A DNA stretch of 64,000 nucleotides from Methanogenium organophilum (GTDB lineage: Archaea > Halobacteriota > Methanomicrobia > Methanomicrobiales > Methanomicrobiaceae), in NCBI RefSeq assembly GCF_026684035.1, contig NZ_CP113361.1, positions 2,566,715 through 2,630,714 of the forward strand, read 5' to 3'. Under the pieces are notes generated by a model. The model was not told the origin of the DNA, searched no databases, and saw only the letters and a list, made by a program, of their open reading frames with translations. The translations under genes and the position numbers were made by a program. Below, one piece after another: positions 9,077-14,828 of this stretch. Numbering within the stretch: the first letter of the stretch is position 1; each line of letters starts with the position of its first letter.

Positions 9077-10267
9077 ATGTACTTAATAGGAGAATCACTC
9101 GAGGGCGAAGGCACCGAACTTGCCCATATCGATCTTATGATCGGAGATAAAAACGGACCGGTTGGTACAGCATTTGCCAATGGGATGTCACAGTTATCTG
9201 CGGGACATACGCCCCTTTTAGCTGTCGTCCGCCCCAATCTGCTTACAAAACCAGCAACACTTATTATACCAAAAGTAACTCTGAAAAAGGGTTCGCAGGT
9301 TAACGCGATTTTTGGCGCGGTTCAGGCTGCTGTTGCGAAGGCTGTTGCAGACAGTGTTGAAGAAGGTGTTTTCGATGACGCTGACATTGACGATATCGTC
9401 ATTCTCGCAAGTGTCTACCTGCACCCCGATGCAGCGGACTATAACCGGATTTACCGCTACAACTACGGCGCGACGAAGCAGGCCATTGAGCGTGCATTTG
9501 CACAGTTCCCCAGCAAAGAAGTTCTCATGAAAGAGAAGGACCGTGCAGGACACGCAGTCATGGGATTCAAAGTTCACCGCCTCTGGGACCCTCCATACCT
9601 CCAGGTAGCCATGGACCTTGTTGACATGAAGTCTGTCGAACGTGTCCTGACCGAAGTGCCGAAAAACGACCATGTGCTCATTGAAGCAGGCACACCGCTT
9701 ATCAAACAGTTCGGACTTAACGTGATCTCTGAGATCCGCAAAATCCGCCCGGACGCATTCATCATTGCCGACCTCAAGACCCTTGATACCGGCAACCTTG
9801 AAGCACGGATGGCAGCTAACGCATCAGCTGACGCAGTTGTTGTTTCCGGTCTTGCACCCGTCTCAACAATCGAGAAGTTTATCCTCGAAGCCAAGAAGAC
9901 CGGCATCTACTCCGTTATTGACATGCTCAATGTCACAGATCCTGTCGCACTCATTGAAGATCTGGCATCACGTGGCGCAGCCCCAAGTATCGTTGAACTG
10001 CACCGTGCAATCGACGACGAAGGTAGTGAATACAACTGGGGCAACATCGCAGCAATCAAGGAAGCAGCCGGTGGAAACCTACTCGTTGCAACCGCTGGCG
10101 GCATCCGTCAGCACGTTGTGAAAACAGCGCTGAAATCCGGTGCAGACATCCTTGTTGTGGGCCGTGCTATCACCGCGAGCAAGAACATCAAGAATGCAGC
10201 TGAACAGTTCCTCGAAGAACTCAACAGCACAGAGATTGATCAGTTCAGAATTATGACTGATTTTTAA
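9077..10267 (+). CDS. fae-hps: Bifunctional formaldehyde-activating enzyme / 3-hexulose-6-phosphate synthase
   Basis: A 396-residue fusion. Residues 1 to about 160 are Fae (conserved ELAHIDLMIGDK near the start, with the active-site histidine), which condenses formaldehyde with tetrahydromethanopterin. From about 165 it is Hps, an orotidine-phosphate-decarboxylase-type barrel with ADLKTLDTG and the phosphate-binding TAGGI, joining formaldehyde and ribulose 5-phosphate in either direction. In archaea lacking the oxidative pentose pathway, the Hps direction that releases formaldehyde supplies ribulose 5-phosphate; rpiA is elsewhere in this window. The last seven codons (FRIMTDF and stop) are the left attachment repeat of the element downstream. 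Confidence 0.96.
   Translation: MYLIGESLEGEGTELAHIDLMIGDKNGPVGTAFANGMSQLSAGHTPLLAVVRPNLLTKPATLIIPKVTLKKGSQVNAIFGAVQAAVAKAVADSVEEGVFDDADIDDIVILASVYLHPDAADYNRIYRYNYGATKQAIERAFAQFPSKEVLMKEKDRAGHAVMGFKVHRLWDPPYLQVAMDLVDMKSVERVLTEVPKNDHVLIEAGTPLIKQFGLNVISEIRKIRPDAFIIADLKTLDTGNLEARMAANASADAVVVSGLAPVSTIEKFILEAKKTGIYSVIDMLNVTDPVALIEDLASRGAAPSIVELHRAIDDEGSEYNWGNIAAIKEAAGGNLLVATAGGIRQHVVKTALKSGADILVVGRAITASKNIKNAAEQFLEELNSTEIDQFRIMTDF
10244..10267 (+). repeat. attL: left attachment repeat, the last codons of fae-hps
   Basis: Encodes FRIMTDF and the stop TAA in frame with fae-hps. It is identical to 14805-14828 except for one base (the last Phe codon is TTT here, TTC in the other copy). Recombination in the 20-base identical core would leave the gene intact with a silent change. 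Confidence 0.9.
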
Positions 10268-10283
10268 TCTGTCATTATGTATA

Positions 10284-10295
10284 TTTCTTTTTTTT
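10284..10295 (+). terminator. Oligo-T terminator after fae-hps, supplied by the element
   Basis: A run of eleven T interrupted by one C, 17 bases after the fae-hps stop. Archaeal RNA polymerase terminates at such oligo-T tracts. It lies inside the element, so fae-hps now appears to use an element-borne terminator. Confidence 0.55.
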
Positions 10296-10331
10296 GAGAT
10301 AAATGCTAATGCAATTATTATATCTTAACAA

Positions 10332-10784
10332 CTACATCAACAAATAATGAAAGCCCACAAAAACTGACACACCTAATATTGAAGCATAAAATATCATTGC
10401 ATATATTAAATGGAACCAAGTCAATTTTATATTCGTTAATTTCGTAGTAATTTGCAATTTTCCCTTAAATTGAGGCAAATTTTCAATCCATTTTGAATGA
10501 TCCACGGAACCTAATAATAGCACAAAGTGAACAAAATCCATGCCCATCAATCCAATAATATAGAATGAAACTGCGAAAAACGGAATACAAGCAGCATTTC
10601 CAAATACTGGTACTTCATTTATTTGTAATATCGGAATTAAATAATATCCGATAGAGAATAACGCTAGTGCTATTGGAATTCCTTCAAGTCGAATTTTCAA
10701 AATTATATCATCAAAATGCCTTATTCTGTCTTTGGTTACTTTCCAATCCTCAATATACAGATAATTTGAATTTTCATCAACCAT
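10332..10784 (-). CDS. Small multi-pass membrane protein of unknown function (element cargo)
   Basis: About 150 residues starting MVDENSNYLYIED. A hydrophilic N-terminus with charged helix (VTKDRIRHFDDIILKIRLEG) precedes three or four membrane segments: a first around IALALFSIGYYLIPIL, a second through CIPFFAVSFYIIGLMGMDFVHF, and a last one, WFHLIYAMIFYASILGVSVF, near the C-terminus. An in-frame TTG at 10802 would add six residues, but the ATG at 10784 is preceded by GAGGG and AGGA. I do not recognise the family. It is AT-rich and transcribed away from the AbiJ-like gene, 120 bases distant. A membrane partner of that gene is possible but unproven. Confidence 0.65.
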   Translation of the reverse strand: MVDENSNYLYIEDWKVTKDRIRHFDDIILKIRLEGIPIALALFSIGYYLIPILQINEVPVFGNAACIPFFAVSFYIIGLMGMDFVHFVLLLGSVDHSKWIENLPQFKGKLQITTKLTNIKLTWFHLIYAMIFYASILGVSVFVGFHYLLM

Positions 10785-10904
10785 ACTTCCTAAATCCCTC
10801 AATAATAACTACATCAATTACAAATATATATAATTATTGATTTATTCAAAAATAAACTATTGAAATTTCGAAAGTAATATCATTAAATTATCCAATCCTG
10901 TTAT

Positions 10905-11774
10905 ATGGATCTATTCTCATACAGGAATGGAATTACTAAATACCCTGATTCTTTTCAAACAGATTCTGTTTCTCAAGGACTCAAAAACAGACTTTGGTCC
11001 TGTTTGAATCGTTCTTATTTTAAAGACATATACTATCCAGATATATATGGTGAACTACAGAATAAAAACCACTTTATTCTCTGTAGATTAATTTACGACC
11101 GTCTTTTAAAATTACCTCTTGACAGTTTACCAAGGGAAGGAAAAAAGGCACATTTAGCAATTCGCAATTATTACTTAAATGATACCAAAAGATTTGAAAT
11201 CTATGATTTGATTGAATTTTGCATAAAACATGGATTTAAGCCATATTCCAAGGGTTTTACTGAATGCGCAAATAAAATTTTAACTGAAGAATTTTCAGGG
11301 TTTAGAATAGTTGGAGGACAAGTTACCTACCTTACCAATGAACAAGAAATTAGCGCCATCGAAAATGCACTTACGTCCAATAACGAAATATCTGAACATC
11401 TAAATACTGCATTGCAACATCTATCGGATAAGAACAAGCCTGACTATCCTAATTCAATTAAAGAATCAATTAGTGCCGTAGAATCAATGTGCAGAAAAAT
11501 CTTAGATGATCCTAATGTAACTCTGGGGGCCGCATTAAAGGAAATTGAGAAAAGTGGTAAAATTACATTCCATGGTGCAGAAAAACAGGCTTTTAGTAAT
11601 TTATTTGGCTGGGCTTCTGTATTTGGTGGAATTCGGCATGGTAAGATGAATTCTGAAGAAATTTACCCTGAAGAAATTTACCAGGAAGATGCACGATTTA
11701 TGTTAGTTACCTGTTCTGCCTTTACCAACTTGTTACGGGTTAAGGCAGACAAAGCAGGGATCAAAATAAAATAA
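10905..11774 (+). CDS. AbiJ-like protein (AbiJ N-terminal type 4 with HEPN-like C-terminus)
   Basis: A 289-residue protein. The N-terminal ~60 residues (FSYRNGI ... LKNRLWSCLNRSYF) resemble the AbiJ-NTD4 domain of abortive-infection proteins. The C-terminal half contains IKESISAVESMCRKIL, then FGGIRHGKM and DARFMLVTCSAFTNLL, a helical region like the HEPN-type part of the same proteins. Such proteins are candidate phage-defence ribonucleases. The gene is markedly AT-rich and lies in the cargo slot of the element. The domain match is from memory of family patterns; the canonical HEPN R-x4-6-H spacing is not obvious (an IRHG is present), so catalysis is uncertain. Confidence 0.65.
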   Translation: MDLFSYRNGITKYPDSFQTDSVSQGLKNRLWSCLNRSYFKDIYYPDIYGELQNKNHFILCRLIYDRLLKLPLDSLPREGKKAHLAIRNYYLNDTKRFEIYDLIEFCIKHGFKPYSKGFTECANKILTEEFSGFRIVGGQVTYLTNEQEISAIENALTSNNEISEHLNTALQHLSDKNKPDYPNSIKESISAVESMCRKILDDPNVTLGAALKEIEKSGKITFHGAEKQAFSNLFGWASVFGGIRHGKMNSEEIYPEEIYQEDARFMLVTCSAFTNLLRVKADKAGIKIK

Positions 11775-11846
11775 TTATATTGTATTTTATCCAAACGGGT
11801 GACAATCATCCCGGATTTTAAATTCGTCATGAGCCGTTTCTTCGAT

Positions 11847-12041
11847 TCAATCCATCCTATTTTCAATTACTAGTCCATCTGTTGAATATGAGAGATGCCC
11901 ACATTTCATGCACCTGAATATTGTTTTATCCCGCGTATCCTGAACAATTACGGTATCTCCGCTTTCGCAATACGGACACAGCAAGCCTTCAAGTAAGCCA
12001 TGTTTTGAATCTTCAATTACAAATTTTTTTACAGGTTCCAT
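11847..12041 (-). CDS. Small zinc-ribbon protein
   Basis: Sixty-four residues with CPYC and CMKC pairs spaced about 20 residues apart (residues 22-25 and 44-47), a zinc-ribbon fold that may bind DNA, RNA or protein. The start has GGTGA six bases before the ATG. It lies 55 bases downstream of the Rep gene on the same strand and is probably part of the same transcript. Its function is unknown; a replication or transcription accessory role is only a guess. Confidence 0.6.
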   Translation of the reverse strand: MEPVKKFVIEDSKHGLLEGLLCPYCESGDTVIVQDTRDKTIFRCMKCGHLSYSTDGLVIENRMD

Positions 12042-12096
12042 ATATCATCACCATTTTTCATTTTTATAATATTTTCGCGTGCTCCGTGAGAGTGAA

Positions 12097-13173
12097 TTAC
12101 CTAAATGGGAGCCAGTCCGGGATATAGAACCGCTCCCACATGAGATACCTGACGCGTTCATCTGTTCCGGGTTCTTCAAATTCTGATTCTCCCTGGAACC
12201 ACCAGACTGCATCGTTCTCCTTCTTTTCCTTCTTCATGACGGTCTGTAATGCCCGTGAGGGCTGGAAGGTTCTGCACTTCTTTTTCCAGATGATGGCGTT
12301 ATACACCAGCTCTTCTTTGGTCCAGGGTGTTTCGGTGAATTTTGACCCCGTTGAGATGAATCCCTTTGCGATGTATTTCATCAGGTAGTTGCGGAGGCAT
12401 TCGATGTCCTCGTCCGGCGTCCGGGTCGTGAAATCCACACCGTGATCCAGTGACCCTGCGCAGTATTTCTCCGCCCAGAGACGCTTGATCTTGTCCTGGA
12501 GATCCGGCGGGACCTCGGTAAAGAGGATAACGTGCCGGTGAGGGTATCCGGTCTTGTGCGGTTCGACCACCCAGATATACGGGACTTCGGGGAGGTATTT
12601 TCTGAGGATCTTCGAGAGCTTGTCCCATCCGTCCCTGAGGATCTCAAAACTTTCCTCGATGGATACTGCCTCCCCCTTCATGGACCGGGAGTATTCTCCG
12701 TCCTGGTAGGTGGTGAGGGTGAGCATGGTCACGGGTCCTTTGTTCTCCTTCCACCAGTCATCGAGCTTGTAGAGTCGGGCTAATTGCCGCTTGCGGTAGA
12801 CCTCGGTCCACCGGTGTATATATTGCCCAACGGCTGTTGCACTCCGGTTTTCCTGGAGATCATAACCTGAGATGATGAAGCAGGCCTTCTCTATTTGCTT
12901 GAGATAGGTCACATACTGCCAGGTGATCTGTGCGTATTTCCGAAGGGTGCGATCCCTCTGTACCTGTCTGTGCAGGGAGAGCAAAGAGGGACCTTTCTCA
13001 TCTTCTGTGTGGGTTAGTCTATATGAGCCAAGGGGACACCGGCCAGAGGCCAGATGAAGGGAGGGGACCCACCCTGCTTCGCAGGGTCGGCGCGACGCCT
13101 CGCCGGGTCGCGCCTGGGCATACTCCTTATCCGCATCCGCCGTACCCGGAGCGGGTGCCGTGGCGCCTTTCAC
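12097..13173 (-). CDS. rep: Rolling-circle replication initiator (HUH-type Rep)
   Basis: Up to 358 residues. Three ordered motifs define a rolling-circle Rep: motif I VTMLTLTTY, motif II with the metal-binding HxH in GYPHRHVILF, and motif III YLMKYIAKG, with the nicking tyrosine and YxxKY spacing. It would nick the plus origin and start rolling-circle replication of the excised element. The longest frame begins at a GTG (13173) whose bases overlap the stop of the preceding small gene (GTGA), suggesting coupled translation. The first ~80 residues are low-complexity and translate a GC-rich hairpin region, so the real start may be further in. Composition is far more GC-rich than the cargo genes. 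Confidence 0.88.
   Translation of the reverse strand: MKGATAPAPGTADADKEYAQARPGEASRRPCEAGWVPSLHLASGRCPLGSYRLTHTEDEKGPSLLSLHRQVQRDRTLRKYAQITWQYVTYLKQIEKACFIISGYDLQENRSATAVGQYIHRWTEVYRKRQLARLYKLDDWWKENKGPVTMLTLTTYQDGEYSRSMKGEAVSIEESFEILRDGWDKLSKILRKYLPEVPYIWVVEPHKTGYPHRHVILFTEVPPDLQDKIKRLWAEKYCAGSLDHGVDFTTRTPDEDIECLRNYLMKYIAKGFISTGSKFTETPWTKEELVYNAIIWKKKCRTFQPSRALQTVMKKEKKENDAVWWFQGESEFEEPGTDERVRYLMWERFYIPDWLPFR
13071..13114. repeat. Two adjacent GC-rich hairpins, candidate replication origin
   Basis: Hairpin one is ACCCTGC (13071-13077), loop TTC, GCAGGGT (13081-13087). Hairpin two is GGCGCGAC (13089-13096), a 10-base loop, and GTCGCGCC (13107-13114). Both stems are perfect. They lie at the 5' end of the Rep frame, a common place for a double-strand origin of rolling-circle replicons. 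No nick-site consensus is proven, and a structured RNA leader controlling Rep is an alternative. Confidence 0.4.
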
Positions 13174-13391
13174 GGCCGCGCCCCCCGCGAATCCTGCTCA
13201 CTGTCTTCGACGATCTGTACCATCCCGCATTGTTCAAGCGCACGAGCTGCAAGCTGGTCCCAGGGATTGAGGGCGGTAAATACCATGCGGGATATGATGT
13301 AAGGCTGTGACGAGCGCTTGTCCTGGTTAAGTTCTGCACTAACCATTTGGATCATTCCTTCTGAACAGCCATATCGAGAGATAATCCTCAA
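13170..13391 (-). CDS. Small protein upstream of Rep, unknown function
   Basis: The open frame encodes at most 73 residues from a TTG at 13391. A better-placed ATG at 13346 has AAGGA nine bases upstream and gives 58 residues beginning MVSAELNQDKRSS. The frame also stays open upstream of the TTG (RIPPKERQLRIISRYGCSEGMIQ), which looks like a helix-turn-helix, but has no ordinary start codon there. The stop overlaps the Rep GTG by two bases. It may be a small copy-control or DNA-binding protein; this is a guess from position. Confidence 0.45.
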   Translation of the reverse strand: MRIISRYGCSEGMIQMVSAELNQDKRSSQPYIISRMVFTALNPWDQLAARALEQCGMVQIVEDSEQDSRGARP

Positions 13392-13469
13392 CTGCCGTTC
13401 TTTTGGTGGTATTCGCCCGTTTGTCCTTCTTAAAACAGATACAACAATTACTGACTTACTTTCTTAATA

Positions 13470-13527
13470 TCCGCCCTGATTGGACGGATTTATCCATTAC
13501 CTTACATTCCATAACTTAACTTACATT
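13470..13527. promoter_or_regulatory. Upstream region of the Rep operon: inverted repeat and short direct repeats
   Basis: Within the 218-base gap between integrase and the small gene, 13470-13490 is an inverted repeat (ATCCGCCC/GGACGGAT, 7 of 8 pairs; fully paired on the minus-strand RNA with one G-U). CTTACATT occurs at 13501-13508 and again at 13520-13527, 19 bases apart, in an AT-rich run rich in TTAC. These could be promoter, operator or iteron sites for the Rep operon. Confidence 0.35.
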
Positions 13528-13609
13528 ACTTACTTGAAATGAGGCTAAATACCAATTTCATCATAGTCACAGAGAGAATAAAAAGATTTCCCCGGAATTA
13601 TTTTGGGGA

Positions 13610-14740
13610 CTACACATTTTGAATATTCAGTTCTTTGAGAAGTTGCATGAAGACGGCCTGCGCCTGGGGATTTTCAACCAGGAGCTGACGGATCTGGTCT
13701 CCGGTGTTTACCACTTCCTGCTGGGCATCATTGGTAAGAGGGTGGCGACACTCTGCGCAGTATTTTGATCCCAGGAGGTTGACCTTATGACAGATGGGAC
13801 AGACGGGAGGTTCAAGGCGATAGACCTGCTGTTCCTTGAATTCTAAGGTGCGTTCCATTCCGGCATTGCGTAATGCGACTTCGTCCAGGTAGTTTGCATC
13901 GAGGTTGGTATAGACATCTATCATCTTGGTGGTGAGAGTTCCCCAGTTCTTCTTCATTATATAGGGGAGTTCCACACCGGAGGCAACATCATGGGTAATC
14001 CGTGAGGACCTGAATATTGAGGCCTTCAGTTTGTGAATGCCAGTCTTATTTTTGATGAGCTTGAGCATTCGCTGAACATTGTCAATTGTCATCGGACGGA
14101 TACCCTTCTCGGTTGCGTTGATGTTGCAGAAGATATACTGGTCCGGTGAGGGGTCGGGGTGTTCTGCACGCCATTGGTCGATATAGGGGATACTTGCAGT
14201 GGTCAAACGTATCCGCCGTTCTTTCCTTGTCTTCGCATCAGTGATGAAGTAATACCCATGACTGTCTGCTATGAGGTCCTTCCATTGTAATCTCAGAATT
14301 TCTATGGGTCGGTTGCTTCCATCATAGAGCATTGCGATAATTGCCTTGTCACGGCTGTTTCGTGCCGCCTGGATAACACGCTGGACTTCTTCGACTGTCA
14401 GCATGTCTTCAGGTTTTTTTGTCTTCCATTGCGCTTGGGGGAGCTTGACCTGGTCGATTTCTAATGAGTCAATATTCGGATTTTTCTTTCCAAGCCATTT
14501 TGCATATGACTTTGCAGAGCTTACGATCTGTCTCTTGTAATTCGGCTTGTATTCTTTTGACTGCCGAATTTCTTTGAACGCCTGTAACACATTATCGGTG
14601 GAGCATTCGAGAGGGGGAGCTGGTAAAAATGTGGTGAAGCGATAAAGGAGATTCTTGGTATTCTTTTCCCACTCTGGAGATATGCTGACCATCCCATTTT
14701 TCCAGTTAAGGTATTCGTCAATGAGATCCGCATTTTCCAT
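13610..14740 (-). CDS. int: Tyrosine recombinase (integrase) with C-terminal zinc ribbon
   Basis: A 376-residue phage-type integrase. Residues ~1-95 form the SAM-like DNA-binding region. The catalytic domain has the first arginine in MLYDGSNRPIEILRLQ, a lysine in the KTRKERR beta hairpin, the second arginine in SIFRSSRITHD, NWG in the H/W position and the nucleophile tyrosine in VYTNLD. The histidine of the usual HxxR box is replaced by Ser, which is tolerated in some archaeal integrases. A zinc ribbon (CPIC...CAEC) follows near residue 316, as in many euryarchaeal integrases. The gene starts 64 bases from attR and is transcribed away from it. It is the likely enzyme for integration into fae-hps. 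Confidence 0.93.
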   Translation of the reverse strand: MENADLIDEYLNWKNGMVSISPEWEKNTKNLLYRFTTFLPAPPLECSTDNVLQAFKEIRQSKEYKPNYKRQIVSSAKSYAKWLGKKNPNIDSLEIDQVKLPQAQWKTKKPEDMLTVEEVQRVIQAARNSRDKAIIAMLYDGSNRPIEILRLQWKDLIADSHGYYFITDAKTRKERRIRLTTASIPYIDQWRAEHPDPSPDQYIFCNINATEKGIRPMTIDNVQRMLKLIKNKTGIHKLKASIFRSSRITHDVASGVELPYIMKKNWGTLTTKMIDVYTNLDANYLDEVALRNAGMERTLEFKEQQVYRLEPPVCPICHKVNLLGSKYCAECRHPLTNDAQQEVVNTGDQIRQLLVENPQAQAVFMQLLKELNIQNV

Positions 14741-14754
14741 GAGGATAGATTGCC

Positions 14755-14778
14755 GCAGTAGATTATATAATCTCCTGC
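14755..14778. promoter_or_regulatory. 24-bp palindrome over the integrase TATA box
   Basis: AGATTATATAATCT (14760-14773) is a perfect 14-bp palindrome, extended by GCAG at 14755-14758 and CTGC at 14775-14778 with one mismatched pair between. Its core TTATATAA is 23-30 bases from the integrase ATG at 14740, the spacing of an archaeal TATA box for a leaderless or short-leader transcript. It may be an operator or an integrase arm site as well as a promoter. Confidence 0.5.
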
Positions 14779-14804
14779 ATAATGATGGATCTTTTGTAGT
14801 TTAC

Positions 14805-14828
14805 TTCAGAATTATGACTGATTTCTAA
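14805..14828 (+). repeat. attR: right attachment repeat, displaced 3' end of fae-hps
   Basis: A copy of the last seven codons and stop of fae-hps (FRIMTDF, TAA), differing from attL at one base. It is not preceded by the rest of the gene. What follows it is presumably the ancestral downstream flank of fae-hps. Confidence 0.9.

Follow-up and report, generated by a model that had tools for sequence, protein, structure and literature searches.

Does a HEPN-type effector act together with a small membrane protein on a mobile element of Methanogenium organophilum, or are the two genes separate passengers? An earlier note, made from the sequence alone, had placed both genes between attL and a replication module and pointed out that a soluble HEPN-type effector with a membrane partner would be a new arrangement. 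We examined them within a window of 64,000 nt (the whole stretch of DNA analysed), whose contig is a 2.65-Mb single-contig genome. The two cargo genes form the accessory slot of a 4.6-kb element (10244-14828), with the following features:

10244-10267, plus strand: attL, at the 3' end of the fae-hps gene; a 24-nt direct repeat with one mismatch to attR
10332-10784, minus strand: three-helix membrane protein of 150 aa, divergent from the AbiJ-like gene
10785-10904, no strand: divergent intergenic region of 120 nt (about 115 nt in Methanoculleus G015), where both promoters would be expected
10905-11774, plus strand: AbiJ_NTD4-HEPN protein of 289 aa, PDC-S32 family (Pfam and PADLOC profiles, AlphaFold2 model)
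10908-11375, plus strand: AbiJ_NTD4 domain, residues 2-157 (Pfam), a proposed sensor after PMC3710099
11373-11750, plus strand: HEPN-fold domain, residues 157-282 (VIA-align on the predicted model), a proposed RNA-targeting effector
11628-11639, plus strand: GIRH motif, residues 242-245, with R and H invariant
11653-11682, plus strand: perfect tandem duplication of 15 nt, which adds a unit of five codons in a loop a few residues after GIRH
11847-12041, minus strand: zinc-ribbon protein of 64 aa beside Rep (zinc-ribbon profiles weak, below cut-off)
12097-13173, minus strand: rolling-circle type Rep of 358 aa (REP_ORF2-G2P, E 1.9e-11)
13610-14740, minus strand: tyrosine integrase (Phage_integrase, E 6.9e-15), with C-terminal zinc-ribbon-like cysteines seen in the translation
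14805-14828, plus strand: attR, the second copy of the 24-nt direct repeat, single at the empty site of four congeners

The element is an integrated rolling-circle plasmid. Its direct repeats, together with a site that was empty in four congeners (G003, G004, G005 and G006), bore out both the mobile-element setting and the position of the cargo proposed earlier. In these four, only one repeat copy was present and a metal-dependent hydrolase gene lay within about 100 nt after fae-hps; for the other congeners in the comparison, the G001 stretch stops just past fae-hps and G002 gave a distant fae-hps match only. Rep and the two cargo proteins had no match in any of the six congeners, two of which are less than 82% complete. 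The cargo was also AT-rich and unlike the rest of the element, as had been noticed before (GC content 31.6%, versus 51.6% for the Rep/zinc-ribbon block and 46.8% for the integrase; 45.3% for the window). The element resembles pML of Methanohalophilus mahii, pML-orf1 being 37.7% identical to the window Rep over 71% of the query, but differs from it in being integrated and in carrying a tyrosine integrase and cargo.

Methanoculleus G015 has a 62.5% identical relative of the zinc-ribbon protein adjoining a Rep remnant. At the fae-hps site G021 has other cargo (L025 8195-8605 and 9273-9533), namely a bacterial PH-domain protein and a probable membrane protein of 86 aa (by reading of its translation), again next to a Rep remnant; stops interrupt the remnants in both genomes. 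This different cargo supports a variable accessory slot at fae-hps. Between the window and G015, dS was 0.47 for the membrane gene and 0.81 for the zinc-ribbon gene, both below the 1.49 of fae-hps, which suggests that the element moved horizontally at a later time, with the proviso that codon use and composition differ.

Both cargo ORFs are intact in the window (10905-11774, plus strand, 289 codons; 10332-10802, minus strand). Dinucleotide shuffling of 10268-11846 (300 replicates) gave stop-free runs of at most 208 aa (median 78); the 289 aa of the AbiJ-like protein therefore exceed chance. The domain search that the earlier note had called for was run, and the AbiJ-NTD4-like N-terminus was clearly recovered: Pfam AbiJ_NTD4 matched at E 7.3e-29 (101.6 bits, cut-off 34) and the PADLOC profile PDC-S32 at E 1.6e-84, covering residues 1-281 and profile positions 7-281 of 285. 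By these profile matches the protein is a full-length member of the PDC-S32 candidate defence family, PDC standing for phage defence candidate (PMC11514479). No useful match to either cargo protein was obtained in NCBIfam or PHROGs.

Of 392 genomes sampled from the phylum, 11 contained PDC-S32, as did two of the 14 controls (Escherichia coli and Methanosarcina acetivorans); AbiJ_NTD4 was present in six of 232 genomes of the order, four of them above the Pfam cut-off. Relatives were also identified on 40 viral contigs, in four phage records and on two plasmids; the 40 viral loci were found by a family alignment, the AbiJ-like protein as a single query having given none. Weak PDC-S32 matches in L051, L052, L053 and L055 were surrounded by type I restriction genes (by reading of the translations), and a TIR-like gene lay beside the relative in L113. 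On one viral contig (L100 4001-5698) the gene after the AbiJ-family gene, in the same orientation, encodes an AbiP-like protein (PADLOC AbiP, E 3.8e-14). The fusion of AbiJ-NTD4 to an AbiJ-type HEPN domain is not new, as it was named in 2013 in a survey whose consulted part lists the AbiJ-type family for Bacteria (Anantharaman et al. 2013, PMC3710099). Literature searches returned no paper naming PDC-S32 and only PMC3710099 for AbiJ-NTD4.

A HEPN-like C-terminus had likewise been claimed, and the predicted structure supports it. The AlphaFold2 model (34 sequences, pLDDT 85.9, pTM 0.82) has a helical domain at the C-terminus, for which VIA-align returned 2hsb as best entry (Z 10.4, rmsd 3.2, 113 aligned), together with 1wol (Z 9.2) and LsoA (Z 7.7). 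The top eight rows were all HEPN-type entries (Z 10.4 to 5.8), followed by rhodopsins and GPCRs from Z 5.7; in helical folds, Z values below about 13 can reflect a mere common arrangement. Entry titles gave the HEPN-type label for 2hsb, 1wol and AbiV, and 1jog, also among these rows, is one that we take to be HEPN-type. The labels for LsoA, MtlR and Csm6 came from PMC3710099. Foldseek placed 2hsb at probability 0.82 but E 3.2, and neither the AbiJ-like nor the membrane model reached E 0.001 with any entry; a sequence search of solved structures with the AbiJ family yielded one chance-level match only (E 0.66). A HEPN fold of the C-terminal domain is a prediction of the model, supported by its structural neighbours.

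R244 and H245 of the GIRH motif were invariant in all 34 aligned proteins, as were K186, E187, S190 and E193. This alignment took 33 of the 40 viral relatives, partial or repetitive sequences (L074, L085, L089, L090, L092, L097 and L099) being omitted. In none of the 34 was the canonical Rx4-6H spacing present, R244 and H245 being adjacent instead. The consulted part of PMC3710099 tabulates Rx4-6H as conserved in AbiJ, mentions that the active site varies in some HEPN families, and places the active site after a helix, where GIRH follows model helix 224-239. Because the spacing is absent despite that table, we treat the HEPN domain as a putative RNase.

Compared with PDC-S32 (AbiJ-NTD4-HEPN in PMC3710099), the window protein has a full-length profile match, the same two-domain order and the invariant RH in GIRH. 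It differs in being encoded on a small archaeal integrated plasmid and in its five extra residues after GIRH. As a result of the tandem duplication, 17 residues separate H245 from A263, versus 12-15 in 33 of 33 relatives. AlphaFold2 confidence was below 50 at residues 244-253. The window copy may be weakened, since the insertion lies near conserved residues and model confidence is low there.

The second gene was described earlier as a divergent multi-pass membrane protein, and this description holds: it lies on the minus strand, has three hydrophobic segments (35-53, 64-82 and 126-144) and belongs to a family of five members. It probably codes for 150 rather than 156 aa, because the ATG at 10784 is the start that it has in common with its G015 relative; homologues, rather than length, show this shorter ORF to be real. 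Predicted model helices span residues 5-48, 64-101 and 119-149, and most family members have a conserved N-terminal stretch, EDWKxTKDRIxxFD. The family was found in five of 232 genomes of the order. A sample of 294 phylum genomes yielded two members, both already among the five, and a short-peptide-pattern scan of genome contigs recovered two loci, L029 (G015) and L030; neither plasmids nor viral contigs yielded a member (two queries each). Between the window and G015, dN was 0.20 and dS 0.47, and the ratio of about 0.43 suggests that the gene is under some constraint. A sequence search of solved structures with the membrane family gave nothing, and a fold assignment was rejected, as VIA-align returned unrelated helical bundles (Z up to 10.3) for a model built from three sequences. 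A 15-nt direct repeat with one mismatch (10326-10340 and 10803-10817) flanks the gene; as a mark of gene gain it was discarded, being absent from the G015 stretches compared and possibly due to chance.

That the HEPN effector and the membrane protein form a conserved unit was not supported by the genomes. The AbiJ-like gene was beside the membrane gene in two genomes only, the window and Methanoculleus G015. Because both cases share the attachment site and a divergent arrangement with similar spacing, they are one element lineage and not independent events. By chance, an overlap of two genomes from six and five of 232 would be unlikely (hypergeometric P 0.005), but this estimate treats the window and G015 as independent, though they are one lineage. 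The G015 contig ends at about codon 45 of the AbiJ-like gene, and the 44 codons gave no usable dS. At the start position of this gene (L008 11916) ATT stands in place of the ATG of the window, with no usual in-frame start seen upstream.

The earlier note had suggested looking for co-occurrence in other elements, and the pair did not reappear there. Three of the five membrane-family loci (L009, L030 and L048) had no AbiJ-family match in the 18.0, 12.4 and 15.0 kb stretches searched. The membrane gene lay near a fragment read as transposase in L009 (G049), with no AbiJ remnant beside it; between a Rep-like ORF and an integrase, by reading, in L030 (the same place as G472); and downstream of a TIR_2 protein in L048 (G490). 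In the last case a methyltransferase, a Bpu10I-type restriction enzyme, the TIR_2 protein and the membrane-family member were clustered (L048 2889-7552). Conversely, none of 40 viral AbiJ loci had the membrane gene in the flanks examined (4 kb or less). Eight of 81 nearest flanking ORFs at 45 AbiJ loci, the window's included, were shorter than 300 aa and had at least two hydrophobic segments, and none but the window's matched the membrane family. The short stretches around L113, L114 and L115 (AbiJ_NTD4) had no membrane-family match below E 0.3; G080 is split over two contigs. Two-gene systems of HEPN or TIR with a membrane protein were not found in the literature search. In what could be searched, the pairing is confined to one element lineage.

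The membrane family weakly resembles, at the sequence level, the PADLOC profile Hydrolase-TM, which we took as the membrane component of its system. With E values of 1 or below counted, all five members matched it (0.0036 for the window, 2.5e-5 for the best of the first four, 2.3e-6 for L048 and 0.0082 for L030), compared with none of ten unrelated small membrane proteins. The N-terminal helix and the first two membrane helices align, best in L048. On the other hand, the profile has 210 positions versus 150 aa in the window protein, whose own match is only that at E 0.0036, and no hydrolase gene adjoins, the window neighbours being fae-hps and the AbiJ-like gene. At E 0.001 the profile did not recover the window gene in its own genome, and in 120 phylum genomes plus 14 control genomes its sole match was a weak fragment with stops. 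No paper was found with Hydrolase-TM as a whole word, nor with it and phage satellites and hotspots. Hydrolase-3Tm reportedly comes from phage-satellite hotspot work. The consulted portion of the PADLOC paper (PMC8565338) contains nothing on Hydrolase-TM, and in that of PMC11291487 Hydrolase-3Tm appears once, in a list.

Taken together, the AbiJ-like gene probably encodes a stand-alone abortive-infection protein, and the membrane protein would be separate cargo rather than an obligatory partner. The NTD4 domain might sense an invader and thereby release the C-terminal HEPN domain, whose presumed attack on RNA would stop the cell or its growth and so the infection; Abi proteins of this kind have been proposed to meet phage components and kill the cell via HEPN RNA degradation (PMC3710099). 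The membrane protein would be a second, separately useful cargo travelling with the element, and it may act in defence alone, for example at the membrane. Such a reading is favoured by the full-length PDC-S32 match and the AbiJ_NTD4 score far above cut-off; by relatives on viral contigs, phage records and plasmids, some near restriction or TIR-like genes; by the element bounds, the empty site and the different G021 cargo; and by the HEPN-type top rows, the invariant residues and the place of GIRH after its helix. The missing Rx4-6H spacing, the insertion near the motif and the listing of a Streptococcus thermophilus AbiJ, which may or may not have NTD4, under 'No activity' (PMC12322248) speak against it, as do the adjacency of the cargo genes in both genomes of the lineage and their overlap among genomes. 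That the membrane protein instead anchors, triggers or restrains the HEPN effector in one defence unit seems rather unlikely: the same divergent pair in the window and G015, the Hydrolase-TM matches, the TIR gene before the G490 relative and the small membrane proteins adjoining TIR genes in L117 (PDC-M50A/M50B) and L118 all point that way, but both paired cases sit at a single attachment site, the G015 gene shows ATT instead of ATG and is cut by the contig end, and, in the stretches searched, three of the five membrane-family loci lack an AbiJ-family match and all 40 viral AbiJ loci lack the membrane gene.

A toxin-antitoxin-like stabiliser of the element, in which a HEPN toxin is restrained by the membrane or zinc-ribbon protein, would suit a small plasmid, and HEPN toxins with partner antitoxins have been described (PMC3710099). 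We give this idea little credence, as PDC-S32 is catalogued as a candidate and no membrane family is common to the neighbours of its relatives. The 'S' in its name presumably means single gene. We think it very improbable that the genes are decaying passengers without present function, to which the duplication near a conserved motif, the stop-interrupted Rep remnants of G015 and G021 and the ATT at the start-codon position in G015 might be attributed; both window ORFs are intact, and the dN/dS of the membrane gene suggests some constraint.

The window gene is ordinary candidate-defence cargo of a known kind, and the mobile element that holds it is real. Methanogen plasmids of the small, integrating rolling-circle type thus carry cargo that can be exchanged, here with a candidate defence gene of the AbiJ type, and viral contigs carry this candidate family as well. 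The remaining lead concerns the membrane family, with its weak tie to Hydrolase-TM and the neighbouring TIR gene in G490. It is unlikely, though conceivable, that this family is a modular three-helix partner for exchangeable effectors (HEPN here, TIR in G490, hydrolase in Hydrolase-TM), the window being a new two-gene HEPN version of membrane-coupled defence spread by small archaeal plasmids; should the family indeed couple to different effectors, a single membrane module would connect systems of the HEPN, TIR and hydrolase kinds. PDC-M50A/M50B (L117) is similar in that a small membrane protein with three segments is encoded next to a soluble effector, but its membrane proteins were not recognised as related and its effector is TIR, not HEPN. 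In L117 (1138-3399), the PDC-M50A small membrane protein adjoins a ThsB-like TIR gene, and another TIR-like gene lies upstream.
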